From Rugalucina vietnamica (lineage: Eukaryota > Mollusca > Bivalvia > Lucinida > Lucinidae), in contig OZ024874.1 of assembly GCA_964017185.1 (NCBI GenBank), forward strand, positions 12,643,957 to 12,707,956: a stretch of 64,000 bases of DNA. The letters are read 5' to 3'. The first letter of the stretch is position 1. Every line of letters begins with the position of its first letter. The translations under genes were made by a program, and so were the position numbers. This document shows, in pieces, positions 26,022 to 60,500 of this stretch. A model generated the notes under the pieces. That model worked only from the letters and a program-made list of their open reading frames with translations, had not been told where the DNA came from and did no database searches.

Positions 26022-26258
26022 TGAGCCACCTCGTGGGAAAACCAACAATGTGGTTTCCGAACAGGTCTGACACAAACCAGCCTGTACAAGCACAGGAAAG
26101 AGCTAGAAGCTTGAAATTTCAGATTTTAGTAGAAGAGGAATTGTACTATCCGAGTAGCGAAAATAAAGGCGCTGATCAGCTTCGCAGTTACTGCGAAGCT
26201 GATCTGCGCCTTTGTTTTCGCCTATGCAGATTGTTGGTTTTCCCATGAGGCGGTCTGA
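26022..26258 (-). mobile_element. MITE-1 copy, right terminus altered
   Basis: Well-preserved hairpin and tail; the right end reads GGCGGTCTGA instead of GGCGGCTCA. Confidence 0.85.
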
Positions 26259-26362
26259 TGTTTCTAAATGAGTTTTTCTTCTTAAACTTAACTCTGATAT
26301 GCCATAAATTATTCTATTATAGAAAACTTTCAAAACGTCATCAAACCCAGCTATTATACATA

Positions 26363-26598
26363 TGAGCCGCCTCGTGGGAAAACCAACAATCTGCATAGGC
26401 GAAAACAAAGGCGCAGATCAGCTTCGCGGTAACCGCGAAGCTGATCAGCGCCTTTGTTTTTGCTACTTGGATACTACAATCCCTCTACTTCCTAACTACG
26501 AAAATTCATGCTTCTAGCTGTCTTCTGTGCTTGTACAGCCCAGTTTGTGTCAGACCTGTTCGGAAACCACATTGTTGGTTTTCCCACGAGGTGGCTCA
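26363..26598 (+). mobile_element. MITE-1 copy, complete
   Basis: TGAGCCGCC and GGTGGCTCA ends; TA borders both sides. It lies 104 bp from the inverted copy at 26022, so the pair could form a long hairpin in RNA. Confidence 0.9.
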
Positions 26599-31142: not shown

Positions 31143-31166
31143 TCACAATATTGTACAGAAACTGGA
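31143..31166 (-). CDS. RPGR: RPGR terminal exon encoding the CaaX box CTIL
   Basis: The acceptor is TTCTTTTGTTTTCAG. Phase 0 carries over from the exon at 39019-39111 and gives SSFCTIL followed by TGA (31145-31143). The previous exon ends KKK, so the C-terminus is a basic patch plus CaaX, typical of a prenylated tail. In human RPGR1-19 a CTIL terminus is geranylgeranylated and bound by PDE6D. Two other frames of this region stay open longer, but neither fits the phase of the upstream exon. At eight codons this exon would be missed by most gene finders. Confidence 0.85.
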   Translation of the reverse strand, partial: SSFCTIL

Positions 31167-34100
31167 CTGAAAACAAAAGAATACATTTATTAAAGATCCT
31201 CTTGGTTGGATTAAATTTACAAAATTAAATGCAATGCGACATGAGAAATCCAGTCTCCTGGATTTCCGACCAGGCCTGGCACAACTCGGCCTATACACCC
31301 ATAAAAGCAGGCTTGATGTTTTGAAATTTTGGATATATGTAGGAGAGGAATTTTACTATCCATGTAGTGCTGTTTTCTATTATCTCCACTTTTTGTATTC
31401 ATTCAATAACACATCAATTTGAAGACCTTTTAGTTCTTTTTTCTATAAAACTAGAAATTGGCTGCAAGCAAGGCTTTCAGTATACCCCCCGCAAAATTAT
31501 CTGAAGCTGGCCAATAACTTCCTAAGTCAAACATGCAAAAAATTTGTCAAAGATATCTTTTCAGCATTATAAGCCTTCATGTACATCCCCAGTATGCCAG
31601 TCACATCTATAAGATATTAAAAGAATATATTGAAAGCTTGAGGTTGATTTCACTGTATGCACTATGATCATTGTTTATCATGAGAAATGGTAAAAATTGG
31701 CTAAGTTAAATAAAAGCTGTAAGTTTGTCAAAAATTAAATTTTCAGCATGAAAATTATTCATGCACATCTCAAATATATCTGGAACAAATCTACAAAGAA
31801 TCTTAAAGAAACATTGAAAGCCCTAGGAGGAGTTGATTTCACAAAGTATGCATTACCAACCATTATTGTATATAAGCAATGGTCAAGAAATGGCTATGTT
31901 GAAAAATGATGTAAATTTGTCAAATATCACTTTTTCAGTATTATAATTATTCATGCACATCTTCAATATGTGTGGAACATGTCTGCAAAGTATTGAAAAG
32001 AAATACTGAAAGCCCCAGGAGGAGTTGATTTCACAAACCATCATTGTATAAAAGCAATGGTCAAAAAATGGCTATGTTAAAAAATGCTGTAAATTTGTCA
32101 AAAATTAATTTTTCAGTATTATAATTCTTCATGCACATCTTCAATATGTGAGAAACATGTCTGAAAAGTATCCAAAAGAAATACTGAAAGCCCTTGGAGG
32201 AGTTGATTTCACAAAATGTGCACTACCAACCATTTTTGTATATAAGTAATGGTCAAAAAATGGCTATGTTGAAAAATGCTGTAAATTTGTCAAAAATTAT
32301 TTTTTCAGCATTATAATTCTTCATGCACATCTTCATTACGTGTGGAACATATCTGCAAAGTATTGAAAAGAAATACTGAAAGCCCTAGGAGGAGTTGATT
32401 TCACAAAATATGCACTACCAACCATTATTGTTTAAGCAATGGTCAAAAAATGGCTATGTTAAAAAATGCTGTAAATTTGTCAAAAATTATTTTTTCAGCA
32501 TTATAATTCTTCATGCACATCTTCAATATGTGTGGAACATGTCTGTAAAGTATTGAAAAGAAATACTGAAAGCCCTAGGAGGAGTTGATTTCACAAACTA
32601 TGCACTACCAACCATTATTGAATATGGCAATTATCGAAAATTGGCTAAGTTCAAAATGCCGTAAATTTGTCAAAATTCATTTTTTCAGCATAATACTTCT
32701 TCATGCATATCTTCAATATCTCTGGCACATATCTGCAAAGTATCAAAAGAGAATATTGAAAGCTGTAGGAGGAGTTGTTTTCACAAAGTATGCACTATTA
32801 GCACTATGGCAAACATTCTATGTATAGGTTTAAAAAGTCCCATAACTCTTGCAAAACTGACCCTTTGGCCCCTAAATTCATATCACACATGTGTTGTCTA
32901 ATGGTGCAGGTGTGTTGAAAATTTGAAGAACATCGGGCAAAAACTACTTAAGTTATTCAGCAAAGATGTCAAAATGTTGACGGAATGACGGAATCACGGA
33001 ATGACGGAATCACGGAATTACGGACAGACTGAAAACAGTATACCCCCCTAAAACTTCGTTTTGCGGGGGGTATAATCAAGATTAGGTTACTTATTAGAAA
33101 CATGCATACAGTTAATGCTAACCCATTTATTATACCCCCCGCAAAACGAAGTTTTAGGGGGGTATACTGTTTTCAGTCTGTCCGTAATTCCGTCATTCCG
33201 TCATTCCGTCATTCCGTCAACATTTTGACATCTTTGCTGAATAACTTTAGTAGTTGTGGCCCAATGTTCTTCAAATTTTCAACACACCTGCACCATTAGA
33301 CAACACATGTGTGGTATGAATTTAGGGGCCAAAGGGTCAGTTTTGCAAGAGTTATGGGACTTTTTACACCTATAAATAGAATGTTTGCCATAGTGCTAAT
33401 AGTGCATAGTTTGTGAAATCAACTCCTCCTACAGTTTTCAATATGTTCTTTTGATACTTTGCAGATATGTGCCAGAGATATTGAAGATATGCATGAGGAA
33501 GTATTATGCTCAAAAAATGAATTTTGACAAATTTACAGCATTTTGAACTTAGCCAATTTTCGATAATTGCCATATTCAATAATGGTTGGTAGTGCATAGT
33601 TTGTGAAATCAACTCCTCCTAGGGCTTTCAGTATTTCTTTTCAATACTTTGCAGACATGTTCCACACATATTGAAGATGTGCATGAAGAATTATAATGCT
33701 GAAAAAATATTTTTTGACAAATTTACAGCATTTTTTAACTTAGCCATTTTTTGACCGTTGCTTATATACAATAATGGTTGGTTGTTCATAGTTTGTGAAA
33801 TCAACTCCTCCTAGGGCTTTCAGTATTTCTTTTCAATACTTTGCAGACATGTTCCACATATATTGAAGATGTGCATGAAGAATTATAATGCTGAAAAAAT
33901 AATTTTTGACAAATTTACAGCATTTTTCAACATAGTCATTTTTGACCATTGCCTATATACAATAATGGTTGGTAGTGCATAGTTTGTGAAATCAACTCCT
34001 CCTAGGGCTTTCAGTATTTCTTTTCAATACTTTGCAGACATGTTCCACATATATTGAAGATGTGCATGAAGAATTATAATGATGAAAAAATAATTTTTTA

Positions 34101-35676
34101 CCAATTTACAGCATTTTTCAACATAGTCATTTTTGACCATTGCCTATATACAATAATGGTTGGTAGTGCATAGTTTGTGAAATCAACTCCTCCTAGAGTT
34201 TTCAGTATTTCTTTTCAATACTTTGCAGACATGTTCAACAGTGCATGAAGAATTATAATGCTGAAAAAATAATTTTTGACAAATTTACAGCAATTTTTAA
34301 CATAGCCATTTTTTATACCCCCCGCAAAACGAAGTTTTAGGGGGGTATACTGTTTTCAGTCTGTCCGTAATTCCGTCATTCCGTCAACATTTTTACATCT
34401 TTGCTGAATAACTTAAGTAGTTTTTGCCCAATGTTCTTCAAATTTTCAACACACCTGCACCATAAGACAACACATGTGTGGTATGAATTTAGGGGCCAAA
34501 GGGTCAGTTTTGCAAGAGTTATGGGACTTTTTAAACCTATACATAGAATGTTTGCCATAGTGCTAATAGTGCATACTTTGTGAAATCAACTCCTCCTACA
34601 GCTTTCAATATTCTCTTTTGATACTTTGCAGATATGTGCCAGAGATATTGAAGATATGCAGGAAGAAGTATTATGCTGAAAAAATGAATTTTGACAAATT
34701 TACAGCATTTTGAACTTAGCCAATTTTCGATAATTGCCATATTCAATAATGGTTGGTAGTGCATAGTTTGTGAAATCAACTCCTCCTAGGGCTTTCAGTA
34801 TTTCTTTTCAATACTTTGCAGACATGTTTCACACATATTGAAGATGTGCATGAAGAATTATAATGCTGAAAAAATAATTTTTGACAAATTTACAGCATTT
34901 TTTAACATAGCCATTTTTTGACCATTGCTTATACAATAATGGTTGGTAGTGCATATTTTGTGAAATCAACTCCTCCTATGGCTTTCAGTATTTCTTTTCA
35001 ATATTTTGCAGGTATGTTCCACACATACAGTCCTAACCACAGCCTCAGATTTCCCCAGAAAACAAGAAAACATACAGTTCATAAAAGATAATTAAGTGGC
35101 TACTTATCACAGCATGCTGTTCTGTTCTGGGAATATGTTAATTAGGACATACCTAGTTACAGCCTGCATGTGGTCCAGACCATATGGCACAGATAAAGCT
35201 GCCCTTTCAATTTATATTTCTTTCCTGGTTTATGTCAAATTATTTTTAAGCTTTATAAGGGCAAAACTATTGTTTGATTACATATTGTGAAATGGTTAAA
35301 AATTTGTGATAGGACACAGAAGACGCAAACAAAAAGCTAAACCATCCATTTTTGAATGAAAAAAAAAAAACCAGTCATGGTAGTACCAAACATTCGTCAA
35401 TTGTTTCTATCTGAAATGAGAAGAATGCCACAAAATATGTGTGTGTGGTTGACACACAGAATAGATATTAACCAATCCATGCAGATACAAAATGTATGCT
35501 CGTATTAAAAAAAAAAATATTGTATGTGCAATAACAACAAATGACGCTGATCTATTTGCATGAAGGTTAATTTTAAAACATACATTTCATATGACAAATG
35601 TTTTTTTTTTTTTCCTTTTTTTTTTTTAAATTTGATAAACGTAATAGAATGATGCCACTCTTAAACATGGGACTTA

Positions 35677-35729
<53 letters not shown>

Positions 35730-38700
35730 AAAAAAAAAAAAGCATTAGTTACTCTGAACTATGTCATCACATTTGCTCCTGAGAATTTTGAAAGTGATTG
35801 AATGTCCCCCATTTTCTTGAGTGCGAGAACATAACATTTTTGAATATATACTAGCGCACATATTTTAATCAGCGCTCACCCATGTATGAGCCGCGTCATG
35901 TAAAAACCAGCAATGTGGTTTTCGACCAGGACAGACAGACACAAACTGTGCAGTACAAGCACAGAAGAAGGCTAGAGGGTAGAAATTTCGGATTTAGAAA
36001 GTAGAGGCATTGTGTAGCGACAACAAAGGTGCTGCTAAGCTCAGTTACACGCAAAGCCGATCTGCGCCTTTAGTTTCGCATATGTAGATTGTTTGTTTTC
36101 TCATGAGGCGGCTTGTTCTTTATAATGAAAATCTTTGATGGGGCTGACATAAACATGTGTTGTTGGTGTATTGAACTGTTGATGTTTTTTTTTTTTATAT
36201 ATATATAGGTTGATTAAATGAATCGGGTGCACAAAGCGTAAGTGACATTTAGAGCCTGTTTGTACATACTAGAACATGTGCACGCAGCGCGCATCAAAAA
36301 GTTGCCGAAAACCTTAAATTGACTGAACTATGTCTTTCCCGCATGCATGATATTTTTATGACACACAAGTATGACACACAAGTGTATTCATTTACTCAGG
36401 GAGGGGGGTTGTTAATATCTTACACATATTTGGTTCACTGTAGGGGTTTTAATAAAGTCTGACTCAAAATGTGCTGTACAGCACTAAAACCCTTGATTTG
36501 AAACTTACTATTCATAAACATCACTTGATTTGGTGCAGCTGATACCAACCCTGCTAGCATATACTGAGTTCCACAGCCAACGCAACTCGTCATTAAATTT
36601 TTAATTTAAACTCAGTATATGAATGGGCCACTGCATGAGAAAACCAATAATTTGGGGTTTCAACTAGGTCTGAAACAAACCACCCTCACAGTCACAGAAG
36701 CAGGCTAGAAGTTTACTTTTTTGGATTTAGAAAGAATGGTCACTGTTCTATCTGTGTAGCGAAAACAAAGACACTGATCATCAAAACATTTAATGCACAG
36801 CTGATCTGTGTCTTTGTTTTCGACTATACATGTTGTTTGTTTTCTTATGCGGTGGCTCAAATATTTTCTAATTATGAGTGCTTATTTATTGGAAAATTGT
36901 GTTTAAGATGTCATTTTTTTTATTTATTTTTTTTTTTTTGCTAAAATGTAGAATGAAGGTACATATATACCCATTGAACTTATCAGTTTCCACACATAAT
37001 TATTTCACCTGTTAAAACTGTTTATTTGTATTTGAAACAGAAAAACATAAATATGCTTGTTGATTTATATGACACACATTGTTTCATTTGAAATGATACT
37101 TTCTATACAATAAAATGCTAATTAATTACAGATAGTGTATCTCAGTATCTTCCTTCCAGTCGGTCCAAGTGGTCCTAATTAGTGACCACATTGTGAGGCA
37201 ATGATAATATCTATCCCTGCTGGGATTATTAACTCCTGCCAATTATCTCATGAGGCTCAAAAATGAGCCAGGTATTGAGTCTGTGGTTAGGACTGCATAT
37301 TGAAGATGTGCATGAAGAATTATAATGATGAAAAAATAATTTTTGACAAATTTTCAGCATTTTTCAACATAGCCATTTTTTGACCATTGCTTATATACAA
37401 TAATGGTTGGTAGTGCACATTTTGTGAAATCAACTCCTCCAAGGGCTTTCAGTATTTCTTTTTGATACTTTGCAGACATGTTCCTCACATGTTGAAGATG
37501 TGCATGAAGAATTATAATACTGAAAAATTAATTTTTGACAAATTTACAGCATTTTTTAACATAGCCATTTTTTGGCCATTGCTTATATACAATGATGGTT
37601 TGTCAAATCAACTCCTCCTAGGGCTTTCAGTATTTCTTTTCAATACTTTGCAGACATGTTCCACACATATTGAAGATGTGCATGAATAATTATAATACTG
37701 AAAAAAGTGATATTTGACAAATTTACATCATTTTTCAACATAGCCATTTCTTGACCATTGCTTATATACAATAATGGTTGGTAGTGCATACTTTGTGAAA
37801 TCAACTCCTCCTAGGGCATTCAATGTTTCTTTTAGATTCTTTGTAGATTTGTTCCAGATATATTTTAGATGTGCATGAATAATTTTCATGCTGAAAATTT
37901 AATTTTTGACAAACTTACAGCTTTTATTTAACTTAGCCAATTTTTACCATTTCTCATGATAAACAATGATCATAGTGCATACAATGAAATCAACTTCAAG
38001 CTTTCAATATATTCTTTTAATATCTTATAGATGTGAGTAGGATACTGGGGATGTACATGAAGGATTATAATGCTGAAAAGATATCTTTGACAAATTTTCT
38101 GCATGTTTGACTTAGGAAGTTATTGGCCAGCTTCAGATAATTTTGCGGGGGGTATACTGAAAGCCTTGCTTGCAGCCAATTTCTAGTTACAAATAAGTGC
38201 AATGCGTCATCTGATAGTTGAGCTAGTCATTTGAGCCGCAATGCGAGAAAACCGGTCTTTGGGGTTTTTTATCAGGTCCGACACAAATCTGCCTGTATAG
38301 TCATAGGAGAAGGCTAGAAGCTTGAAAAAAGCTTGAGTTTTAAAAGTAAATGAGGCATTGTACTATCCATGTGGCAAAAACAAAAGTGCTGATCAGCTGT
38401 GCTGTTACTGCACAACTGACCTGTGCCTTTGTTTTCGCATACCGGTCTGCAAAAATCTGGTTTTCTCATGACGCGGCTCATTAAGTTTTATGTCTTTCTC
38501 AAGATCATCTCAGTTCAACTGAGACAGGCCAATTATTAGGTGGAGCAAATATGGAAAAACCCTTAGAAAATCCACCTAGCACACCCCAAAGCAGAATTTG
38601 GCTTGTCTCACATGTGCCTTGTATTGGGTTTGAACCCACACTGGACAAAGAGGTAATATGATAGAATGACTAGGCTCGTAAATGAAATCAGAGTTCTTAA

Positions 38701-41700
38701 CCACTTGACCACACGGGCTGCTGTCAATGATTTCAGCAAATAATAAAATAATATGCAAAAGAGAACTTAAGAATTGTTAAGATCTTTTGCGCCTTCACAT
38801 GAAAAAAAACAAGAATTTGGGTTTCCGACCCAGTCTGACACAAACCAGCCTGTACAGTCACAGGAGCAGGCTAGAGGCTTGAAATTTTAGATTTAAGTAG
38901 AAGAGGAATTTACTCTATCCATTTAGCAAAAACAAAGGTACAGTAGCTGCACAGCTGATCTGTGCCTTTGGTTTCGCATATGCAGATTGCTGGTTTTCTG
39001 ATGCAGCAGATCTTTTACCTTTTTCTTTGGTGGTTGTTGTTCATCCTTCTTTTCTTCTGTTTTTTCTCCTTCTTTCTCTCCAGACTTCTCCTTCTCTGTG
39101 TCTTCTTTCTCCTGAAGAAATGTATCAGGAAAAGATGTTCATGAAATAAATATCCCCTTACATCCATTGTGGGGTTAACAGGGGTATACAATTTTTTCAT
39201 GTTTTTCACCCAAAACATTGTGGGTACTCCTTAGAACTGCCTCTTCTAACATGCACCCACAATCTATGTTTTGTGCATAAAAAGACTTTCAAAGTTCTGA
39301 AAAGTTTCATAAATTACATCTCTAAAATTCTCGGTACAGAGCATGGACATGTTTTCATAATGTGCAATGCAATATTCGTCGCATTGGGATAACAATTCAG
39401 GGCTTTTTCTCACCATTTGGGTAAAATTTTGGTACAAATGAAATTGGTTAGCCAAATTTAAAACTTATCTTTAAAATTGGGATCATTTCTATTCATTGGG
39501 AAAATTTCAGGTCATTTGGGAATTTTTTCAGCCAGTTGGGGAAAAACTGATACTGGAAACCATCTGAAGTTATTCTGTTTGATTAGAAAAATTTCATCCA
39601 AAAATAAAATGAAAATCCAAAATCACTGACCTGGACAGTAGACTCAATCCAATTTGTCATAAATGGGTAAAAATTCTACCTTATCTGTGTCTTTATCTTT
39701 TTCTTTATCTTTGTCTTTATCTTTTTTCTTCTTATCTTTCTTCTTTTTATCCTTCTTTTCATCCTTTTCCTAGAAAATAAGTTAGATATCAATTGGTGCA
39801 AATTGATAATTGTTGTTCTTTTTTTTTCCAAAATCAGAATCAGAATAGTTTACTTGTGAAATGCCAAACTGAGAATGACACACCAGCGGTTTGGGCTTGA
39901 CTGAAGGAGAATTAGACCCTAATTCTTTCCACCAGTGCTGATAACCAGTAGACAGAAAACACATTATTACATAGCAAACTTTAAGTTATGACATCAAAGT
40001 ATATAATATGAACCACTGCATAAGACAACCAACAATCAGAAAAAAAAAAGGCGCAGTCCAGCTTCGCGGTAACCGCAAAGCTGATCAGCGCTTTTGTTTT
40101 CGCTACATGGGTAGTACAATCCCTCTTCTTCCTTCATCCAAATTATCAAGCTTCTAGCTATCTTCTGTGAGTGTGCAGGCTGGTTTGTGTTGAACCTGGT
40201 TGAAACCTAAATAGTTGGTTTTCTCACCCAAAGGCTCATATAAATAAAAATCTCTAATTCTCAACACCAGGATTAAAAATCAGTGTAATGTATACCCGCT
40301 TTAACCCACTTTTACATATTCAACGTGTGGATGACATGAGCAATCAAGTTTTTCTTATTTTGCTTTAAAACATGAATTGTGGGTACATGAAGCCACAAAT
40401 TATGTACTGAGCAAAAATAAGAAACATATCACAATTTTTGAACTGAAAATTTTCATTCTTTACAGCTGAACAATCATCAGTTGTAGTATAGGGGTGTTTT
40501 CGTAATGACAACTGACCTTCTCTTCTTCCTCTTCCTCCTCGTCTTCTTCATCTTTCTCCTTATCCTTCTTTCCTTTCTTCTTCTTATCTTTCTTTTTGTC
40601 CTTCTTGTCTTTAGTTTTAACTTTGTCATCTTTCTCTTCAGCTGAAATTCAACAGAATATGAGCCTCTGCATCAGAAAACCAACAATTTGGGTTCCTACC
40701 AGGTCAAACACAAACCAGTCTGTACAGTCACAGAAACAGGCTAGAAGCTTGAAATTTCAGATTTAAGAAGAAGAAGAAGAATTGTACTATCTGTGTAGCA
40801 AAAACAAAGGCGCTGATCAGCTTCGCAGTTACCGCAAAGCTGATCTGTGTCGCATATGCAGATTGTTGTTTTTTTCCATGCGGCAGCTCATATGTACATG
40901 CAAATTTTCAGCTGTGACATTTTTTTCATACTCTTTGAATTCAGGACAGTTCCTAGCCATTAAATAAATTTAACTTCTTTTCATAAGTCATGCTTCAGAA
41001 TGTGTGCCCCAACTTGGCTATCACAGACTAACTTCTCATCACGTTTGTACGCTTTTCTCATAACATATCAGTTTGGCTAGCTAGTTTTTCTTCCGACACA
41101 TAGAATAGTGCTATACAGAGATTGATATTAGCCGCCGCATGGGAAAACCAACAATCTGCATGGTGAAAACAAAGATGCAGATCAGCTGAGTGCCTTTGTT
41201 TTCGCTACATGGATAGTACAATTCCTCTACTGCCTAAATCCAAAATTTCCAGCCTCTAACCTTCTTCCGTGACTGTACAGCCCAGTTTGTGTCAGACCTG
41301 GTCAGAACCCAAATTGTTGATTTTCTCATACACAGGTTCATTTATGTCATGTTACATCCAAGTAAGCATTCTTCTGTCATATAAACCACTATAAAACTTT
41401 GAACTCCTCTTACAGCAACATACCCTCTTCCTCCTCCTCTTCTTCTTCATCTTCTTCTTTCTTTCCTTTCTTATTCTTCTTATCCTTCTTTTTATCTTTA
41501 TCCTTTTCTTTCTTCTCCTTTTCTTTCTTATCTTTTTCTTTCTTTTTCTTTCCTTTTTTCTCTACTTCCAATTCTGCAGTCTTCTCTTCTTTTTTGTCTT
41601 CTTCCTCTTCTTCTTCGTCTTCTTCTGATTCTTCTTCATCTTCTGAAATTCCCGTATGTTTCCTTCCAAACAGGCCTAAACCTTTACCCTTCTCTGAAAA

Positions 41701-44700
41701 AAGCCAAATGAGAAACTATATATGTCTTCAGAGGTTTCTGAACAGTAATGACAAAACCTGGGTTGGTTGTCCAGCCATAGAGGATGACTAGACATCAGGG
41801 GCCAGTTGTTCAAAACTAACGACGTCGTTAGTTAACGTTTCGTTAAAATTTCAAATATTAATATTACAAATACACTGTTATTTTTTGTTGAAAAAATGTG
41901 AGAATCCTTTGCATTGCAAAGGATCCTCACATTTTTTCAACAAAAAATAACAGTGTATTTGTAATATTAATGTTTGAAATTTTAACGAAATGTTAACTAA
42001 CAACTGGGCCCAGGATAACATGTCCGTGAAATGTATACCCGCTTATACCCCAATTTTATATAGTAAAACTGGGGTTTGCAGGCGTTTAACCTATTTCTCT
42101 TATTTTTGCTCCAAAACATAGACTGTGGGTACTCGTTAGAACCGCCCTGTCGAGGTGGTTCTAATGAGTATCCACAATCTATGTTTTGAGCAAAAATAAA
42201 AAAAAGTGTCAAAAATTTTCTGCTGAAAATTTTCAATTTTTACAGCTTCAGAAAATTCTATATATTTCATGGGCATGTTTTCGTAAAGGGCTTGAAATTG
42301 GTAGAGCAATGTAATCTAATGTATGGTTGGAAATTCATGCTTGATCTTTATTTCGTCAATTTCCTATTTCTGAATTATTCAGGAGTTCTCGAACTTGCAA
42401 GACACAATATCTTTTAGAAGCCCTGATTCCTTTAGTGTGAACCCTGTTAGGATACCCTTCTAGGAACAGGCTAATCAGATTCAGCAATATTCAGACCTTA
42501 CTTTGGAAATAATTTCATAATTGTAGTGGGATATTGCAGGCAGGGAAATCTGCCAGAGTTATATATAGTAACAATGAATATTTTATGATAATATCTTGAC
42601 AAATCTTACTCTTTTTCACTTTTTTCTTCTTTTCTTTCTTTGCCTCTTCCTTCTTCTTCTCTTCTTGCTTTTCTTCTTCCTCATCCTCTTCCTCCTCTTC
42701 TTCTGAGTCTTCTTCCTCTTCCTGTCTCTTTGGTAAAGCTCTAGGTGGGGGTATTGGTGCTGCATGGACACTCTGAAATTTTTATGCATTTGTTTTAATG
42801 AATTACAGTCCAACCTGTGTTAAGCAAGCCCTGTATTAAGCAAGCACCTGCCTTAAGCTAGCACTTTCATTTCCCCCCAATTGATTTTACACGTAAATGA
42901 ACCTCTATTAAGCAAGCACCTCTCTTATGTGTCCAGAGGCCACTAGTTTCTGTCCCAATTGTGGCTCTAAGCAGCCACTCATTTCATCAATTACATAAAA
43001 AAGAAATAATTTGACATGGATATTTAAACTGGTCAGGTGTCAAAATTGTCTTCACACCTTCCAGATGCCATAATTCATTGTTTATTATCTCAAAAGATAA
43101 TCCTAGACAGCTTGTCTGGGCAGTTTGGAAACTCAGTAACAGTCACCACTGACAGTGGCAGTGCTATTACATTGTATTTATTTCTAGCCAATATGGTTTG
43201 GTTAGGACAGCCACCGTAGTGTTAGAACATAACCTCTATTAAGCAAGCGCCTGTCTTAAGCAAGCAATTTTAATGGTTCTCTTGGCCGCTTGCTTAAGAC
43301 AGGTTGGACTGTATTTCTTTTCATTACAAAAACTTCATGATTACTTAGGAATTTCTTTTAATTACATATTAAATATCTTATAATCTATCATTTATGAACT
43401 AAATTTTTAGTTTCACAAATATTTACCTTGCCTATCATAAAATAATGTTTAATCATGTTGATTTTTGTAAGAATTTAGCATTTTTGACTTTTAAATTACT
43501 TAATTACATAAATTATTGATTTTTTCTCTTGACCCTGTCAAACCTCCATTTCACTGTATAAGTATAGGTTTGAAGGGGTTAAGTTACACACGGAGATGTT
43601 TCCATGATGTCACACATTTTTTCGTTGCTCAACAGCTTAGGTCATGCACACTGTTCCTGGGCAAGCTTCCCAGAGGCAGATTATCAGTATTTATTTCACA
43701 TTTGAGCCGCCACATGGGAAAACTAACAATCTGCATAGGCGAAATCAAAGGCGCAGATCAGCTTCGTGGTAACCAGGAAGCTGATCAGCGCCTTTGTTTT
43801 CGCTACTCAGATAGTACAATTCCTCTTCTACTTAAATCCGAAATTTCAAGCTTCTAGCTCATTTCTGTGCTTGTACAGGCCGGTTTGTGTCGGACCTGTT
43901 CCGAAACCACATTGTTGGTTTTCCCACGAGGCGGCTCATTTCTCTTACCACCAACTGTCATAATTATTGCCCTTCTCAGCTTCTTGAATCATCAGAGATG
44001 AATGGCCTTAGAAATGTTAATGACCAAATTTTTGTGAGGGAGTGAAAACTGAGTTTTTTCTTTAAATGCTGTTAATAGTCTCAATGACATTGTTACATAG
44101 TTTGCAATTTATCACGAGAAAAATTTCACTAAGTTGTATTCCGAAATTGGTGGCCATGCAAATTCAAAGTTTGTCTATATATTGAAAATATATTAATTTA
44201 ATTAAATCTGGTTAAAAAAGAGCTTGTGAATAATTGATATATGGAAAATTTGAAAATTAAAGAGCACTTCTAACTTACAGTACTTTGTTTAAATCATTTG
44301 TTTGATTTGTTGCTTTACGCACCAATCAACAGCTATGGTAATGTCCTCCATTTTTTTACATCTACCCAACATTTGGGATGTCATGATGCCTAAAACCTGC
44401 TATAAAATATGACCACTCCAAATAGATTACTAAGGCTTAAATGTACGGACAGTTTGACTAAACTGCTTTTGCTGGGCAGCCTCAGACCTTCTAAGCAGTA
44501 AACCAGTAATCAAATTGTCGGTCTGTTGGTTAAAAGCTATGCATGGAGACACAAGCAGACAATCTGTTTCTCAAAGCCCCTTTGGGCTGGGGCCCACACG
44601 GGGTCCATAGTTTGTTCGGACTTACAGGGACTAGTTGTTCTTTCATCTCCTCTTCCTCCTCTTCCTCTTCTTCACTCTCTTCAGGAGTTGCCTGGTAAAA

Positions 44701-47700: not shown

Positions 47701-50700
47701 TATCATATAAGGGACACAACTCATTGATAACCACAGTTACTAAACTTTATGATATTATGACATCATCAACGTCAGGAAACTATAGCGACGACGTCATGAA
47801 TTTACTTTTGTTTGTTACAGTGTACAGTGTTGCAGTCATACTAATTTACTAGTATTTTGTATTTGTTGTTGACTTTATCAATTTATATACACATTGGTTC
47901 CCCCTTCCTATAGATGCTTCATATAAAAGTTGGCTTTGGTTGGCCAAGTGGTTTCAGAGAAAATGTGGCCGCATGGATGGATGCATGGATGCATGCACGG
48001 ACGCCGGCTCGAGTACTATACTATAAGCTCCCCATGAGCCTTTGGCTCAGGTGTGCTAACAACACGGACAATGCAATAGATAGATTGGTTAGCAAATTTG
48101 TTAAATGAACCGCCTCAAATCAAAAGTTTAAAGAGCTAAAGAAACCAAAAATACTACAACATTACTTTCTCTAAATTAAACTGCAATTTCCTCTCCTGAA
48201 AGTGCAGAATGTTAATTTAAGTCTATTATTCTTACTCAACACAAAGCAAACATTGTAATATCTCTGTATGTTGATCCTTCTCCAAACTTCTTTAGTGACC
48301 CCCATTTGGTGTACAGATTCAATAATAGTTTGAAATTTACATATTTATAAACTTCTTATTACATTTTCATTCAAATATGAGCCGCGACGCAAGAAAACCG
48401 GTCTTCGGGGTTTCCGACAAGGTCTGACACAAACCGGCCTGTACAAGCACAGAAAAGAGCTAGAAGCTTGAAATTTCGGATTTAAGTAGAAGAGGAATTG
48501 TACTATCCGTGTAGCGAAAACAAAGGCGCTGATCAGCTTCGCGGTTACCGCGAAGCTGATCTGCGCCTTTGTTTTCGCATAGGCAATAATCCCGTTTTCT
48601 CACGATGCGGCTCATATTATAGTAAGTAACAAATATGACTGCTGAGATTTTTTTTTATTGTTTTTGTTTTTATCTCAGAAAATGCAAAACTATTTGCACA
48701 TTGTCATAAATAATGGAGACACTGACAGTACAATTCCTCTTCTACTTTTACCCAAACATTTATGCTTCTAGCTTTATTCTGAGACTGTCTTGGCGGGTTT
48801 ATGTCGGACCTGATAGGAACCTCAGAATTCTGGTTTTCTTGCGTCAAAGACTTACAGGTTTTCTTGGCACAGGTCTAGGTAGAGGTTTTGGTGAGGACTG
48901 TACTTCTTCTTTCTTTACCGCCTAAAAGATAGGAGGAACATCATGAATGAAAAGTGCTCATGATATGGCCCATAAAACACAAAAATTGTCTATAACATAA
49001 CAGATTAAAGGAATTAAAAACAATTTTCCAGACAATAATATTTACTAGGTTTTCATTACGAAAACACACCCATGTAATATACAGATTTTTTTTAAGTTGT
49101 AAAACATAGATTGTAGGTACACGTTAGAACCACCTCGCCGAGGCGGTTCTTACAAGTACCCACAATCTATGTTTCAGAGCAAAAATAAGAAAAATAGGTT
49201 AAACCCCTGCCTACCTCAGTTTTGCTATATAAAAGTGGGGTATAAGGGGGTATATATTGCATGGAAATGTTATCCTGATGAAAGAATTTTGTGGCAAATA
49301 ACAGATCAAACTCAAGACAATCTACGTCATGAAAACTAAAACACCTGATTCATGCAAAGTAAAAATAACAATTTTGAAAATCAAGCATGCAAAGATGTAT
49401 TTAGAAAGCATGTGACTAGTATAGTTCATCTACTTTCTAAATCCAAAATCTAACGGCTCTAAACATCTCCTATTGTATAGTCATCACATTTGCGCCACAT
49501 CGTGAGAAAACGGGATTGCCTATGCAAAAACAAAGGCGCAGATCAGAGTGCAGTAACTGCACAGCTGATCAGCACCTTTGTTTTCGCTACAAGGATCGTG
49601 CAATTCCTCTTCTTCCTAAATCCCAAATTTCAAGCTTCTAGGCCGGTTTGTGTCAGATACCCCGAAGACCAGTTTTCTCGGGTCACAGCTCATTAATGTT
49701 AGAATAAGTCAGATTATTCCAAGTCAACTTTTCTCGAAATATGGCTCAAAAGTGATGTCCTTACTGTTGTGGCTTCCTCATGGACTTCATTTTCTTGTAA
49801 ATCTTCTCTCACACCTTCAAAACAAAGAATACGTTTCAGGATAATTTTCAATATCAAAGCTGTTCATAATGTCCTTCGCCTTACAATATTGCGCAGAGAT
49901 TGATTTGTTGCACATCTAAGTCTCTGCATGAGAAAACCAACCATCTGCATATGCGAAAACAAAGGCGCAGATCAGCTGTGCAGTAACAGCTGATCAGCGC
50001 CTTTGTTTTCGCTACATGGATAGTATGATCCCTTTACTTCTTAAATCCAAAATTTCAAGCTTGTAGCCTGCTTCTGTGGCTGTATAGGCCGGTTTGTGTC
50101 AGATCTGGTCAGAAACCCAGATTGTTGGTTTTGGCATGCAAAGGCCCATCTGTCAATTAACTACAGTTATTTTTTTCAAAAGAAATGAACAGTTTGTCAT
50201 GTTAAGGTTTTGAGCTTAATGAAACATTTAACAACCATAGGCCGATTATTCAAAACTTTGCTAGCTTAACATCATCATTAAGACCTTAACTTGTTAAGTA
50301 AATGCCGACTACATAAGCAAATACACTGTTATCTTTTGTTGAAAAATGAGAGAATCCTTTGCATGCATGGCAAATGATTCTCACATTTTATCAACACAAG
50401 ATAATGATGTATTAATAATTTTTTTTTTTTTTTTTTTTTATGTTTGAAATTTTAAGAAATTGTTAACTAACAATCTTGTTAACTCATTTAAAGACTGGCG
50501 TCCTTTTTGTGTGACATAGGCAAACAGAATAGCCCCAGATGTGACGCTGCAGAACGCGGTGTCCCATCTGGGGCTATTCTGCTTGCTTAAAGAATATTCA
50601 CTGAAAAATTGAATAAAATTTAAAAATCACACCTGATGCCCCTAAGAACTGAAGTGGACTCACCAAAATGATAATAATGGGAAAAATTCATTTGTCAAGT

Positions 50701-53700
50701 ATAGGTTAATTTTGAACAACTGGGCCATGTATTGATGCAAGTTCAACTCAAACTAATTAAGGGGAGCACAAGGGCCGGTTGGTAGAACATAGGACTCCAA
50801 ACCAAGAGGTCCTTGGTTTGATCCCAACATGGCGCACCGTGTTGTATCTAACTTTTGATACCATAATGTACCGTTAATTTTCCTTTGTTTCGGTGGTGTA
50901 ACAGGATGTCGCTGTGATTTCACTGCTGGTACAGTTTTATACAAATTCTCGATATTTTCCGCATCTTCTTTCTTTAGAGGTGGAAGAGTTCTATTCAAGT
51001 CTATTTTAAACTGAAATGAAGAATATATAAAGTTACAAGCTCTAAAGTGTTTGTGGACAAAATTATATAAAATTTATTAAATAAGCCTTTGATCAGTTTT
51101 ATAAATTTCAAATAAAATGAGCATGAGTGTAAGATTTTTTAAAATGGGATTTTCTCGCCTTCAAAAATTCAGTGTTGTCTGTTAATATATTTGTGGTTGT
51201 ACCATAATTGAGCTGTGTCATGAGAAAACCAGATTTTATGCCTATGCAAAAACAAAGGCGCATGAGCTTCGAGGTTACCGCGAAGCTGATCAGCGCCTTT
51301 GTTTTCGCTACTTGGATAGTAGAATCCCTCTTCTTCCTAAATCCAAATTTTCAAGCTTCTAGCCTTTTTCTGTGACTGTGCAGTCCGGTTTGTGTCAGAC
51401 CAGGTCGGAAAACGCATTGTTGGTTATCTCATGAGGCAGCTCAGTTAACTACTTATTAATAAGTCAAATGATATATATTTTTTTTTCTAATTCAGTTTTA
51501 CGTCCCTTTCAAGATTATTTCAGCTCATATGAGACGGGCCAATCAGTAGGTGGGCGAAAACGAGAGAACCCCGAGAAAAAACACCTGGCACACCCGCAAG
51601 CAGAACTTGGCTTGTCTCACATGGTGACCAGAGCGGGGTTCAAACCCACACCAGACACAGCGGTGAGATGCCAAATGATAAAACTAAACTTGTTGCTATC
51701 AAAGTGAATTGATACTTACAGAATCATTATGTTTTCTCCGCCTATCTCTCGCTGTAACACTGTTATTTAAGTCTATTGACCCGTCAGGTCGTAACGAATG
51801 ATTTAACAGTCCGTTCATCTTTGGTTCTGACAGAATTTCTTCATCTGAACTGTACGACTCATTGTCCAATCGTAATTTACCTAAGCAGATCATGTGACAC
51901 CCTCCACATGATACCTATAATTAAGGAACAGGAAGGTATATTTAGAAAATGGTGATACCTTCAACATGAAAACCATTATTCTTTTTTCAAGATCATTTCA
52001 CTCATATTAGGCAGTCACTTAGCAGGGCAAAAAGTGGGTGTGGCCCCTTCACCCTAATACACACACAAGCTGTGCTTGACTTGTCTCACATGTGCTCTAT
52101 GTGGGTTAAAAATGTCTTGACTGCATTTATAAGCAAAGGCTAGTCTTTAACTAAATGTTTTAAAAAAAATAATCTTCAACCTTTCCACTAAATTTTGATA
52201 TATCTAAAGAAAACTAAAAAATACTTTCAGTAAACCATTAAAGTTGGGCAGATATGAACTTGATTATAGCTTTGCTGTAATATAAAATGAGCCGCCTCAT
52301 GGGAAAACCAACAATTTGCATATGCGAAAACAAAGGCGCAGTCAGCTTCGCAGTAACCGAGAAGCTGATCAGCGCCTTAGTTTTCGCTACACGGATAGTA
52401 CAATCCTTCTACTCTCTAAATACAGTTCAACCTCATTATAATGCGCCTCATTATAATGCGGTTTTCAATATAACACGGCCATGCCATGGCTCCCAAATTG
52501 ATTATTTTGCTATATGTCTATAGTAAGTAACCTCATTATAACACGGTTCACTTATAACATGGTCTGCTCCTATGGACCCCAAAGATAGCGTTATAATGAG
52601 GTTTGTTGTGGATTAACCACCTGTACGCAATTTCATGCTTCTAGCTGTCTTCTGTTATTGTGCAGTCCGGTTTGTGTCGGACCTGGTCGGAAATCACTTT
52701 GTTGGTTTTCCCACGAGGCGGCTCAAATTATGACTGCACACTGAAAGAACAATGGTCCTACCTTTTCTACATTGAACTTTGAGAAGCGTTTGACTCGTTG
52801 TGGTGTGAACTGATTTGAGAAACTTTCCTGGCCTAACCCTAACTTTCCATGCCGACCATCCCCAAATGTGTATAACTGGCCTTTGTCTGGAAATGACAGT
52901 AAAAAAGAAAATATGAAGAATCATAAGAATTTTCCCAAAAATGAGCTCTGTCTGGAGAAAACCAGTCTTTGGGAGTTACGACCCAGTGCAACATAAACTG
53001 GCCTGTACAAGAAAACTTGTACACAGAAAACTGTTCACTAAAGATTTGAGTATGATGAAATTTTGGATTTATAAAGAAGAGGGATTGTACAATCTATGTA
53101 GTGAAAACAAAGGTGACGATCAGTTACTGCACATCTTTGTTTTCACTTACGCTATAAGCTGGTTTTCTTATGATGCAGCTTAAATAGTATTGTACATGCA
53201 TGTTGGGCAAATAAGTCCTTTGGGTAAAGTTTATGTAAAGTTTTCTTCATCTTGGACTATTTATGTACATGTTGCTTCCCCCTTCCTATAGATACTTCAT
53301 ATAAAATTTGACTTTAATTGGCAAAGCTGTTTCAGAGAAGAAGATCTTTGACCAGAGGACCATTGGTCCTGAGAACGCTCACCTGAAGCCTCATCTTGGA
53401 GTATTAGGTCATCATGAAATGACCTTGACCTTGAATACTCACACACCTTTATTGAGTTGTCTGCATCCGCAAAGTTTCAGGTCTCGGGCTGCAATAGTTT
53501 CCAAACCCAGTGATTTCTGAGAAAACCATAATTTTAATTTTGATATTTAAATGACCTTGGGTCAAGGTCAAGAAATGACCTTGGCCTTCATTAATTACTT
53601 ACCTTCATTGACTCCATTAGTTGTCTGCATCTATCAACTTTCAGGTCTCAGGCTGCAACAGTTTCCAAAATATCCATTGTTTTCGCCTTTTCCCATGTAA

Positions 53701-56700
53701 AAGCCTATGTTTCCAAAATTGACCTTGCCGTAAAATAAGTCAAGGTCATCCTAAGGTCATCATTTCAACAAACTATGATGGGCTGGAGTCCCAAATGGTC
53801 CAAGTTTCGCGTAAATCGGCCAGCCAGGTTCTGGAGAAGAAGATTTTTGAGTGGTTTTTACCATAGTTGGGCATGGCCGCCATCTTGGTCATGTGACCCG
53901 AATTTTGCGATCAAACTTTCGTTCCCCCTACCCATGGACGCTCCACACAAAATTTCACTTTGATTGGCAAAGCAGTTTCAGAGAAGAAGATCTTTGAAAA
54001 GTGTGTATGGACGACAGACTGGCCAAGGTCAAAAGATGACCTTGACCTAAATTAATTACATACCTTTATCTACTCCATTAGTTGTTTGCATCTACCACTT
54101 TTCAAGTCTCAGGCTGCAACAGTTTTCAAAAAATCCATAGTTTTCACTTTTCCCATGTAAAAGCCTATGTTTCCAAAATTGAAATTGCCGTAAAATAGGT
54201 CAAGGTCATCTTAGGGTCATTATTTGGTCAAACTATGATGGGCTGGAGTCCCAAATGCTCCATGCCAAGTTTCATGAAAATCGGCCTGCCGGTTCTGGAG
54301 AAGAAGATTTTTGAGTGGTTTTTACCATATATGGGCGTGGCGGCCATCTTTGTCATGTGACCTGGATTTCACTATCAAACTTTCGTCTCCCCTACCCATG
54401 GATGCTCCACATAAAATTTCACTTTGATTGGCTAAGCAGTTTCAGAGAAGATCTTTGAAAAGTGTGTATGGACGACAGACTGGCCAAGGTCAAGAAATGA
54501 CCTTGACCTAAATTAATCACATACCTTCATCTACTCCATTAGTTATTTGCATCTACCACTTTTCAGGCCTCAGGCTGCAATAGTTTTCAAAAAATCCATA
54601 GTTTTCACTTTTTTCCATGTAGAAGCCTATGTTTCCAAAATTGACATTGCTGTAAAATAGGTCAAGGACATCCTATGGTCATCATTTGATCAAACTATGA
54701 TGAGCTGTCCCAAATGCTACATGCCAAGTTTCATGAAAATTGGCCTGCCGGTTCTGGAGAAGAAGATTTTTGAGTGGTTTTTACCATATATGGGCGTGGC
54801 GGCCATCTTTGTCATGTGACCTGGATTTCACTATCAAACTTTCGTCTCCCCTACCCATGGATGCTCCACATAAAATTTCACTTTGATTGGCCAAGCAGTT
54901 TCAGAGAAGAAGATCTTTGAAAAGTGTGTATGGACAACAGACTGGCCAAGGTCAAGAGATGACCTTGACCTATATTAATCACATACCTTCATCTACTCCA
55001 TTAGTTGTTTGCATCTACCACTTTTCAGGCCTCAGGCTGCAATAGTTTTCAAAAAATCCATAGTTTTCACTTTTTCCCATGTAAAAGCCTATGTTTCCAA
55101 ATTTGACCTTGCCGTAAAATAGGTCAAGGTCATCCAAGGGTCATCATTTTATCAAACTATGATGGGCTGAGGTCCCCAATGCTACATACCAAGTTTCGTG
55201 GAAATCGGCCCACCGCTTCTGGAGAAGAAGATTTTTGAGTGGTTTTTACCATATATGGGCGTGGCGGCCATCTTGGTCATGTGACCAAGATGTCGCAAAC
55301 AAAATTACAATGCCACTACCCAAGGACGCTCCACATACAATTTCAACTAGATCAGCCAAGCGGTTTCAGAGAAGAAGATCTTTGAAATTGTGGACGACGA
55401 CGACGGACGGACGACGGACGGACGCCGGATCATGGGTATACTATAAGCTCACCTGTGAGCCTTCGGCTCAGGTGAGCTAAAAATGGTGGACGATGTAGAC
55501 GACGGACAGACAACGGACGGACAGAATGACGGGCACATGCCTATCCTATAAGCTCACCTTGTGACCCTACAGCTCAAGTGAGCTAAAAATAGAAAATTTG
55601 CCAAATAAAAGTCATAAAAAAATTCTGAATTTACTGTATTAAACTATTAGTGTAAAACTAACCTGAGATTAAACATGTGTGGTTCTCTCCACAAGAAATG
55701 GCTTGTACTTTGAAGTTGATTGGAAGTTTTCTGGGCGTAGTTGACTGTAGACAATGGGTGCCGTGACCTAGCTGGCCACTGGGACCATCACCGAATGTGT
55801 AGACATTGCCTGTCTCTGAAAAATGTTTAAGGTAAAGAACCATAAAAATGCTGATCCATAGATTTTTTTTATTTTTTGATATTTTAGAGAAAATATTTAT
55901 ATCTGTCGATTCGTGTAATAAAAAAACATGGTTACCAGGTTGGTTTTTCCGCAAACCGCTCCCCTAAAATGGCTAAAAATGCCTTTATTTGTACGTGACG
56001 TAATGGGAAAGTAATGAAAACGCGTCGCTTTTTGCACATGAGCGCCGTTTGCAAGAGAACTAATCCATAGAATTTTTTTAAAAACTAAAAATAGTCTCGT
56101 TTTTATATTGTGTGTCAAAAAGTAAAATAAGAGTCCTTGACTACCAGGTTGGTTTCGGCGGTATTTGTCAACGAATGAAGACAGGTAAGCTAAAATTCTT
56201 AATTATCCGTAAGTGACGTTGACGTCATGAGAATGGCGCCTTTTGATTTTTCAGACGAGTTTCATAAACGTTCGGCATTTGGTCTATTAGAATGAGCTTT
56301 AGGCGGTGAATTAAGATCATTAATTAACTTGTGCTTGTATCTGAGTAATTTTCAACTCAAATGACCTTTCAGTCATATTACGAAGGGTGAATGGTTTAAA
56401 TACGGCCTAGGTTCAATAGTATGTATAGCCGTACTGTTCAAAATGTTTGACCCTAAATTTCAATCATATGTACTTGTTTGTTTGAATTGATGCTAAAAGT
56501 CCCAGTCAACAGCTATGGTCATACCGGGACGTTGCCTCCATTTTATTAGGGTTTAAAAATAACCACCAAACTAAGCCAACAATGCGTATATGTATGGATG
56601 GTTTGACTTGAAACCACTTTTCCTGGGCAGGCTTAACCAGTAATCAGATGGCCTTCGATCAAACTTATTCAATTGTTCTACATAAATATCATTTCATCAA

Positions 56701-57568: not shown

Positions 57569-60500
57569 ACAAATTAGATTTAATAAAAAATAAATTATCG
57601 GGCGAATGAACAGAATGAATAAATAAACATGATAATAAAGAGGCTTTGGCGGGCTCGATCCTCGAGTCCCTCACATCACCTTCCACACGATAAAGCCGAC
57701 CGAAATGAATGGGTGTACGAAATAACGTACACCAGCTTTCTGGAAATTCTATAAATTCATTTTGTTTTTGTCTTTATGTCGCCAGTTTTATACTTTAGCC
57801 TAAACCGACAGCACACACTCGTAATCTAAAATAAAGCAATATGCATTAAGTTGGAAACGGCATTCTCATTCTGGACCTTCTTTTCTCTCCATTATAATGC
57901 GTTTGTTCGTACAAATTAACAACAAAAGCGGTCCGTTTCTTTGTTTCTGTCGATATTTACTGTGTGTTCGGACCGCACACTTACAACCGACGCCATCTTG
58001 AAAACGACGTCATTGGCGCGACGTTATGGCATTTCGTCCTTCGCGACGCACGGACCTTTAAGCGCCACGGTTTTTATGGTTCTTTACCTTAAATGATAAT
58101 TGTTAATAAGAACAAGAATATGACTGTAGACAGTGGAAACCATAACCTTGCTGATCACTCATGTGTACAAGTTGACACCCCTGGGATTCACACCCCTGAA
58201 CTCAATTTTTGGAGTCCAACTTGCTAACCATTGGGCCACAGGACTCCCTGGCCTTAAAATTGTGGGTTTCAGTATCCGTTAAAGCTACCGTATAAGCTCT
58301 CAACAACTGACTCTCTCTGTTCCCAAGGTTATAAAACTTTTTTCATGCTCAACTCAGCTGAGACTAAAATTTATCCTGCTCGTAAATGTTAAAATGCTGA
58401 CAATTGTTGGCATTTTAACATTTATGAGCAGGATAAATTACTAGTCTTTTAGTTTTGAGCCTGAATTTTCCACTAATTTGGACTATTTCAACATTTATGA
58501 GCAGCTGAAATTTCATGCTCAACTGAGCTGAGCTCGAAAAAGGTTTCATAACCTTGTGGTATCTGTGGCATATCTGTGTCGTCAGTGTACCATTAGATCC
58601 TCTACAGTATATAGTCAACGTACCTGTTAAAACTACTGTATGAGCTCCACCGCAGGCCACTGATTTGACTTTCTCTGATAACAACACTTTCTGTGGCGCA
58701 TCTGTATCGTCGGGGTCGTCTCCCAGGCCCAGTTTCCCACCCTCACTCTCACCAAATGTGTACAATTCACCAGACTCTGAAAGGTAGAAATGCTTAAGTG
58801 AGTGCCTGTCCAACAAGCCTAATAACTTAAGGCAGAAAACACTAAACATACCTTGTCACCTGCCAAGTAACTGGATGAAAACGAAAACTTGCCCATGCAA
58901 TATACAGAGATTCTTAAAGTTGTAAAAAATGAAAATTTTCAAATGAAAAAAATTGATATTTTTCTTATTTTTGCTCAAAACATAGATTGTGGGTACACGT
59001 TAGAACCGCCTCCGCGAGGCGGTTCTAACGAGTACCCACAATCTATGTTTTGGAGCAAAAATAAGAAAAATAGGTATACCCCTGCATACCCCAGTTTTGC
59101 TATATAAAAGTGGGGTTCAGGGGGGTAAACATTACATGGACATGTTTTCCTGATGTATTGATATGGGTTCCTAAATGGACATTAGACTGACAAGACAATG
59201 CAAATACCAAATCTGTGTCTTAGATTGGTTTAAATTACATTTATTTCGACGTGTAGTAATTTCAAATTTGCATTTATGTTAAATTTCAAAAATAAATTCT
59301 TTTACAGCCAGCTAAAAACAGGAAGCCTTTAACATGCTTACCTCAGAAAATGCCTTGATGCCCTGTCCCACCAAACCAGTGGCCTCCTATCCCCATGCAA
59401 CTGACCTGTGACTAAAGCTATGATAGTAAACACACAAATTGAAGGTGACCAAATCCTCTATTTCTAGGGTCAAGACATTCTGTTTCCCGCTCATACCTAG
59501 TTGCCCTTTACCCACTCTGTGCCCCTCTCCCCTACACCACCCACCAGACTCACCTGTGACATAACTGTCTGATAGTAACCGCACGATACACAACATCCTC
59601 TATTCGTATTTCCTCGGGGTCGGGCCATTCTGTTTTCCTTCCCATACCTAGCTGACTTTGTGCCCCTCCCCCCACCCTTTACAACACCCACCAGACTCAC
59701 CTGTGACATAAGCTGTATGATAATAACCACAAGATATACAAGTGACCACATCCTCTATGTGTAGTTCCTCAGGGTCGGGATATTCTGTTTTCCTTCCCAT
59801 AACTAGCTGCCACTTACCCACTTTGTGCCCCTCTCCCCTACACCACCCACCAGACTCACCTGTAACATAAGCTGTATGATAGTAACCGCACGATACAAAA
59901 CATCCTCTATTTGTATCTCTCGGGGTCGGGCCATTCTGTTTTCCTTCCCATACCTAGCTGACTTTGTGCCCCTCCCCCCACCCTTTACACCACCCACCAG
60001 ACTCACCTGTGACATAACTGTATGATAGTAACCGCACGATACACAACATCCTCTATTCGTATTTCCTCTGGGTCGGACCATTCTGTCTTCCTTCCCATAC
60101 CCTGCTGATTTTGTGCCCCTCACCCCACCCTTTACAACACCCACCAGACTCACCTGTGACATAAGCTGTATGATAATAACCACAAGATATACAAGTGACC
60201 ACATCCTCTATACGTAGTTCCTCAGGGTCGGGACATTCTGTTTTCCCGCCCATACCTAGCTGCCCCTCTCCTCCTGACCCCCACACATACACAGCACCAT
60301 CATCTGGTCATGTGAAATATACAAACAATAAAATATGAAGCATATTTGTACTCAAGAATATCGTTGGCTCGTTGACAAAACCTCGTAACTGCACTTTTTT
60401 CAAAAAATCGTTTTTTCACATGGCGCGATTCAAAACATTCAAATTCAGCTTGTGACAAAGCATTGTAGGTTATGTCCAATGGGAAGTTAGTTTTTCGATG

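Follow-up and report, generated by a model that had tools for sequence, protein, structure and literature searches.

The 64,000-nucleotide stretch of Rugalucina vietnamica DNA analysed here (the window: contig C6, OZ024874.1, positions 12,643,957-12,707,956, of a genome of 1.09 Gb in 47 contigs) contains, on its minus strand, a gene of the RPGR type whose coding sequence would end in a tiny exon that preserves the CaaX box CTIL. Our best reading, in which we have considerable confidence, is that this exon (31143..31166) is the last one of an RPGR ortholog and that the encoded protein would resemble RPGR1-19, being geranylgeranylated and carried by PDE6D. The exon itself is a prediction from the DNA and is very probably real.

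The identity of the gene is given by its RCC1-like domain. When the exons coding for this domain were joined and compared with proteins of solved structure, the best match was human RPGR (4jhp; E = 1.9e-118, 399 bits), and the next families were HERC2 (E = 7.4e-66, 226 bits) and UVR8 (218 bits). Thus, among solved structures, the domain is nearer to RPGR than to other RCC1 proteins and, as far as such structures can tell, the gene is the RPGR ortholog that the original prediction had named. A Pfam search with the whole predicted chain returned only RCC1-type models (E values up to 0.001), and RCC1 repeats were matched at many further loci of the genome, unsorted by family.

The exon chain was assembled manually from splice sites and phases. 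It comprises 18 exons on the minus strand (E2 to E19) that form a single open frame with its sole stop at the end. Each of the 17 junctions is of the GT/AG type and consistent in phase; exon 1 of RPGR was not found. The chain begins past the right end of the window with E2 (66102-66227) and E3 (64306-64398), both given in window numbering continued beyond that end. It then proceeds through E4 (62227..62289, placed by splice and phase reading and by the structure match), E5 (61264..61419), E6 (60154..60303), E7 (58624..58776), E8 (55663..55815), E9 (52762..52886) and E10 (51720..51914), where the RCC1-like domain ends with VSCGGCHM; the exons of this domain, consequently, run from beyond the right end of the window down to approximately 51.7 kb. 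Downstream are E11 (50872..51010), which includes LNRTLPPLKK, and E12 (49765..49814), followed by exons of a more biased composition: E13 (44626..44691) has a glutamate run, E14 (42610..42772) has proline and then glutamate and lysine runs, E15 (41424..41693) has glutamate and lysine runs, E16 (40517..40641) is rich in K and E, and E17 (39680..39769) is rich in K, D and E. E18 (39019..39111) reads EKEDTEKEKSGEKEGEKTEEKKDEQQPPKKK, with a basic run at its end. One of the domain exons, E6, shows a peculiarity of its own, as it is overlapped by a tandem array (59533-60262; unit of 147 bp, 4.8 copies) that continues into the next intron. The additional units of this array translate as degenerate copies of E6 with broken open frames and, apparently, this RPGR exon has been turned into the unit of a tandem array.

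Direct reading of the minus strand confirmed the end of the chain as it had been predicted. E18 reads in frame and ends in phase 0 (AAA AAG, followed by the donor GTAAAA). At the other side of the last intron (31167..39018, minus strand) and immediately after ...TTGTTTTCAG, the codons TCC AGT TTC TGT ACA ATA TTG TGA (31166..31143) give SSFCTIL and a stop. The joining of E18 to E19 therefore leads to QQPPKKK-SSFCTIL-stop, with a tail that reads ...EKKDEQQPPKKK-SSFCTIL. The basic run PPKKK before the end of the chain would aid membrane binding. The description of the intron as 7.9 kb long and filled with repeats also held, since it measures 7,852 bases and is rich in repeats, among them a tandem array with a unit of approximately 190 bp and 5.9 copies (31686..32797) and another with a unit of approximately 191 bp and 8.4 copies (33400..35027). 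Copies of the ~190-bp unit are also found at 37296-37943 of the same intron.

As this intron is full of repeats, E19 might be thought to belong to a repeat, or to another gene, instead of RPGR. We consider this extremely unlikely. The 261 bases that span E19 have one match in the 1.09-Gb genome, and the idea of a repeat-derived exon was rejected for this reason; moreover, the nearest listed repeat copy (family D6, 31259-31329) ends short of the exon. Regarding a second gene, none was seen by eye near E19 among the 35 ORFs of at least 85 aa that overlap positions 1-38000 of the window, all of which look like repeats or noise. Elsewhere in the window, a dispersed repeat with translations such as ENKGADQLR...DQRLCFRYTDSTIPLLLKSEISSF occurs on both strands and at many places (e.g., 26103-26417 and 48463-48654).

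The acceptor of E19 (GTATTCTTTTGTTTTCAG, 31167..31184, minus strand) has 12 pyrimidines in the 16 positions from -20 to -5. With a matrix built from the other 17 acceptors of the gene, its score was 7.21, within the range of 2.0-10.4 observed for those acceptors in a leave-one-out comparison. Such a score is ordinary, as 23 of the 368 AG sites in the last intron score higher and the acceptor ranks 24th. With a cruder rule, it is the last of 14 good acceptors in the intron. The claim that 31167 is the next good acceptor in phase, consequently, did not stand, and splice strength was discarded as a property that singles out this site; the choice of the site rests on the peptide. Several of the stronger acceptor-like sites are located in the two tandem arrays mentioned above (31686..32797 and 33400..35027), where they could act as competing decoys.

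Given these circumstances, it could be argued that the real last exon is at another position, or that the gene has another splice end, and that CTIL-stop is a coincidence picked with the human end in mind. The many acceptor-like sites in tandem repeats, together with the 23 that outrank the one of E19, would favour this explanation, and so would the frequency of generic CaaX boxes. In control DNA (both strands of 20 stretches of 10 kb taken from other parts of the genome), 10 of 1,578 acceptor-phases at least as strong as that of E19 led to a canonical CaaX, from which approximately 0.15 would be expected over the 24 intron sites of such strength. Similarly, another acceptor rule applied to 94 kb gave a strict CaaX in 7 of 891 cases, E19 included. 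A generic CaaX was, therefore, rejected as convincing evidence, and the case depends on the exact CTIL. The yardstick for this match is the C-terminus of human RPGR, which we take to be CTIL.

Judged by that yardstick, a coincidence seems quite unlikely. CTIL-stop occurs once in 94 kb read in six frames, at E19, and is absent from both strands of the 20 control stretches; none of their 1,578 acceptor-phases yields CTIL. Among simulated introns (20,000 from each of two third-order Markov models, with the phase fixed), 4 and 5 had an in-phase CTIL preceded by an acceptor as good as that of E19, and a single one under each model had CTIL together with a serine at -3, which E19 also has. If the search range is extended from the end of the intron to position 1 of the window, simple arithmetic raises the chance of an in-phase CTIL approximately fivefold, to roughly 0.001. 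Over that longer range there are 53 AG sites that score at least as high as the acceptor of E19, and four of them, E19 included, give a C-x-x-x end, which is a point in favour of chance. By contrast, the cruder rule gives 50 good acceptors from the donor down to position 1, and only that of E19 leads to a canonical CaaX end.

The rarity of the arrangement was also observed at the scale of the genome. A strict pattern, consisting of four pyrimidines, NCAG, three codons and C-T-I-[LF] followed by TAA or TGA, had one match in 1.09 Gb (C15:30579032-30579063), which reads SLICTIL. No gene was seen by eye around this site, and the match appears fortuitous. E19 falls outside the pattern by one purine, so this count illustrates how rare the arrangement is and does not count E19 itself.

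Published work on human RPGR, a protein involved in eye disease, sets the terms for a comparison. In human RPGR, the prenylated cysteine is residue 812 of 815, Ser809 (at -3) is required for PDE6D binding, and the C812S change abolishes ciliary localisation (PMC5051646). These constraints agree with CTIL as the human end, although the last three residues are spelled out in none of the consulted parts of PMC5051646, PMC8037643 and PMC3690454. The predicted protein shares with human RPGR1-19 the RCC1-like domain, the serine at -3 (PMC5051646) and, as a sequence prediction, a C-terminal CaaX coded at the 5′ end of the last exon, which in the human gene is exon 19 (PMC8037643). The two differ in the residues before the cysteine. 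Human RPGR is reported to be geranylgeranylated and to fit the 14-3-3 phospho-prenyl motif [RK]-X-K-[ST]-C-X3, with K-[ST] at -2/-1 (PMC3690454), whereas the predicted chain has S-F at these positions. Its end, K-K-S-S-F-C-T-I-L, does not conform to this motif and, because Phe directly precedes the cysteine, neither the strict nor the relaxed form described in PMC3690454 fits. This departure counts against an RPGR1-19-like protein, as do the ordinary acceptor and the lack of a poly(A) signal close to the stop of E19, the nearest AATAAA being 1,201 bases downstream and a TATAAA being 381 bases downstream.

Regarding the lipid, CTIL has the characteristics of a GGTase-I substrate (leucine as the last residue and an aliphatic a2), and, in yeast, human GGTase-I has been observed to geranylgeranylate it completely (PMC11152559). 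Nevertheless, CTIL is also within a set described as containing many motifs that cross-react between farnesyl- and geranylgeranyltransferase (PMC1175975), so the type of lipid is uncertain. As for the carrier, farnesylated peptides of INPP5E and GRK1 with a serine at -3 and a hydrophobic residue at -1 bind PDE6D with nanomolar affinity and are released specifically by ARL3 (PMC5512577). The S-S-F-C of the predicted chain, with Phe at -1, follows this rule for high-affinity cargo; however, the rule was measured on farnesylated peptides, while CTIL predicts a geranylgeranyl group.

A putative carrier is coded in the same genome. On contig C14, 76 residues match human PDE6D (E = 5e-41; 66 of the 76 identical by eye) and, with numbering counted from the alignment, they keep V80, E88, W90, M118 and L123, described as cargo contacts (PMC5512577); over the residues compared, the cargo pocket is thus present. 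A second GMP_PDE_delta cluster is found at C13:41424675-41447555, with a best match of 97.7 bits, compared with 46.3 bits for the PDE6D exons on C14.

The combination of CTIL, Ser at -3 and Phe at -1, and a PDE6D in the genome makes the route of human RPGR1-19 the best explanation of these data. According to it, 31143-31166 would be the coding part of the last RPGR exon and the counterpart of the 5′ end of human exon 19, and the splicing of E18 to E19 would produce a chain that ends in a basic run followed by Ser-Ser-Phe-Cys-Thr-Ile-Leu. GGTase-I would then attach a geranylgeranyl group to the cysteine, and the last three residues would be removed and the end methylated, as in other CaaX proteins. 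PDE6D, aided by Ser at -3 and the hydrophobic residue at -1, would take the lipid and carry RPGR to the cilium, where ARL3-GTP would release it and further signals, the RCC1-like domain among them, would retain it. As judged from sequence, the inclusion of E19, the prenylation and the use of PDE6D and ARL3 very probably correspond to this known route. It should be considered, however, that the last nine residues of human RPGR bind PDE6D but are insufficient for ciliary targeting (PMC5051646); a CaaX alone, consequently, would not prove the route, and other parts of the protein must contribute.

The region between the domain and the CaaX brings in a second vertebrate isoform. From VSCGGCH onwards, the predicted tail has 404 residues, of which 99 are K, 99 are E and 16 are G, with seven acidic runs; the long glutamate and lysine runs are a feature of this chain. 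As in vertebrate RPGR-ORF15, acidic low-complexity stretches follow the RCC1-like domain, but ORF15 is rich in Glu and Gly and has no CaaX according to the accounts consulted (PMC5051646, PMC6770968), whereas here the tail is rich in Glu and Lys, is not Glu-Gly-rich and ends in a CaaX. Vertebrates have the acidic ORF15 tail on one isoform and the CaaX on another (PMC5051646). That a single predicted chain bears both a glutamate-run tail and a CaaX could be hiding a splicing choice.

E19 might, in fact, be real and still be only one of several alternative ends, the others stopping in or after the exons rich in glutamate and lysine. This is compatible with the best explanation, and we regard it as possible, although it is not what we would expect. 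In humans and zebrafish, RPGR and rpgrb, respectively, give rise to the two isoforms (PMC5051646, PMC10282147) and, in the gene described here, read-through past the donor of E18 gives a short tail, partly a repeat copy, that ends in CFC-stop, so an end with a retained intron is conceivable. Against it, ORF15 has been stated to be absent from invertebrates (PMC6770968, PMC5701211). A bolder proposal takes the predicted chain at face value: a single RPGR would combine a glutamate-run tail, possibly a substrate for polyglutamylation, with a geranylgeranyl anchor. In vertebrates, the tasks of one ancestral tail would subsequently have been divided between RPGR1-19 and ORF15, and the 14-3-3-type switch at -2/-1 would also have been acquired later. 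We put this forward as a speculation that is unlikely to hold in full.

With E19 read as the last exon of an RPGR1-19-like protein, these results extend a known feature of RPGR to another animal and do not describe a new system. Among the literature matches listed, no title or opening of an abstract dealt with RPGR prenylation outside vertebrates, although this is no proof that such work has not been published. A last exon of seven residues behind a 7.9-kb intron is easily missed by gene finders and, consequently, the gene sets of invertebrates may list fewer RPGR CaaX boxes than there are. An ancestral origin of RPGR prenylation would be a fair hypothesis, drawn from two end points, this genome and the human one. 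It is also a testable idea, as rpgr is expressed in the ciliated larval photoreceptors of a chiton, another mollusc (PMC5648526), and in the prototroch of a scaphopod (PMC6800502). If transcripts and related species confirm the exon, the ciliary delivery of RPGR that depends on prenylation and PDE6D would likely predate the vertebrates.
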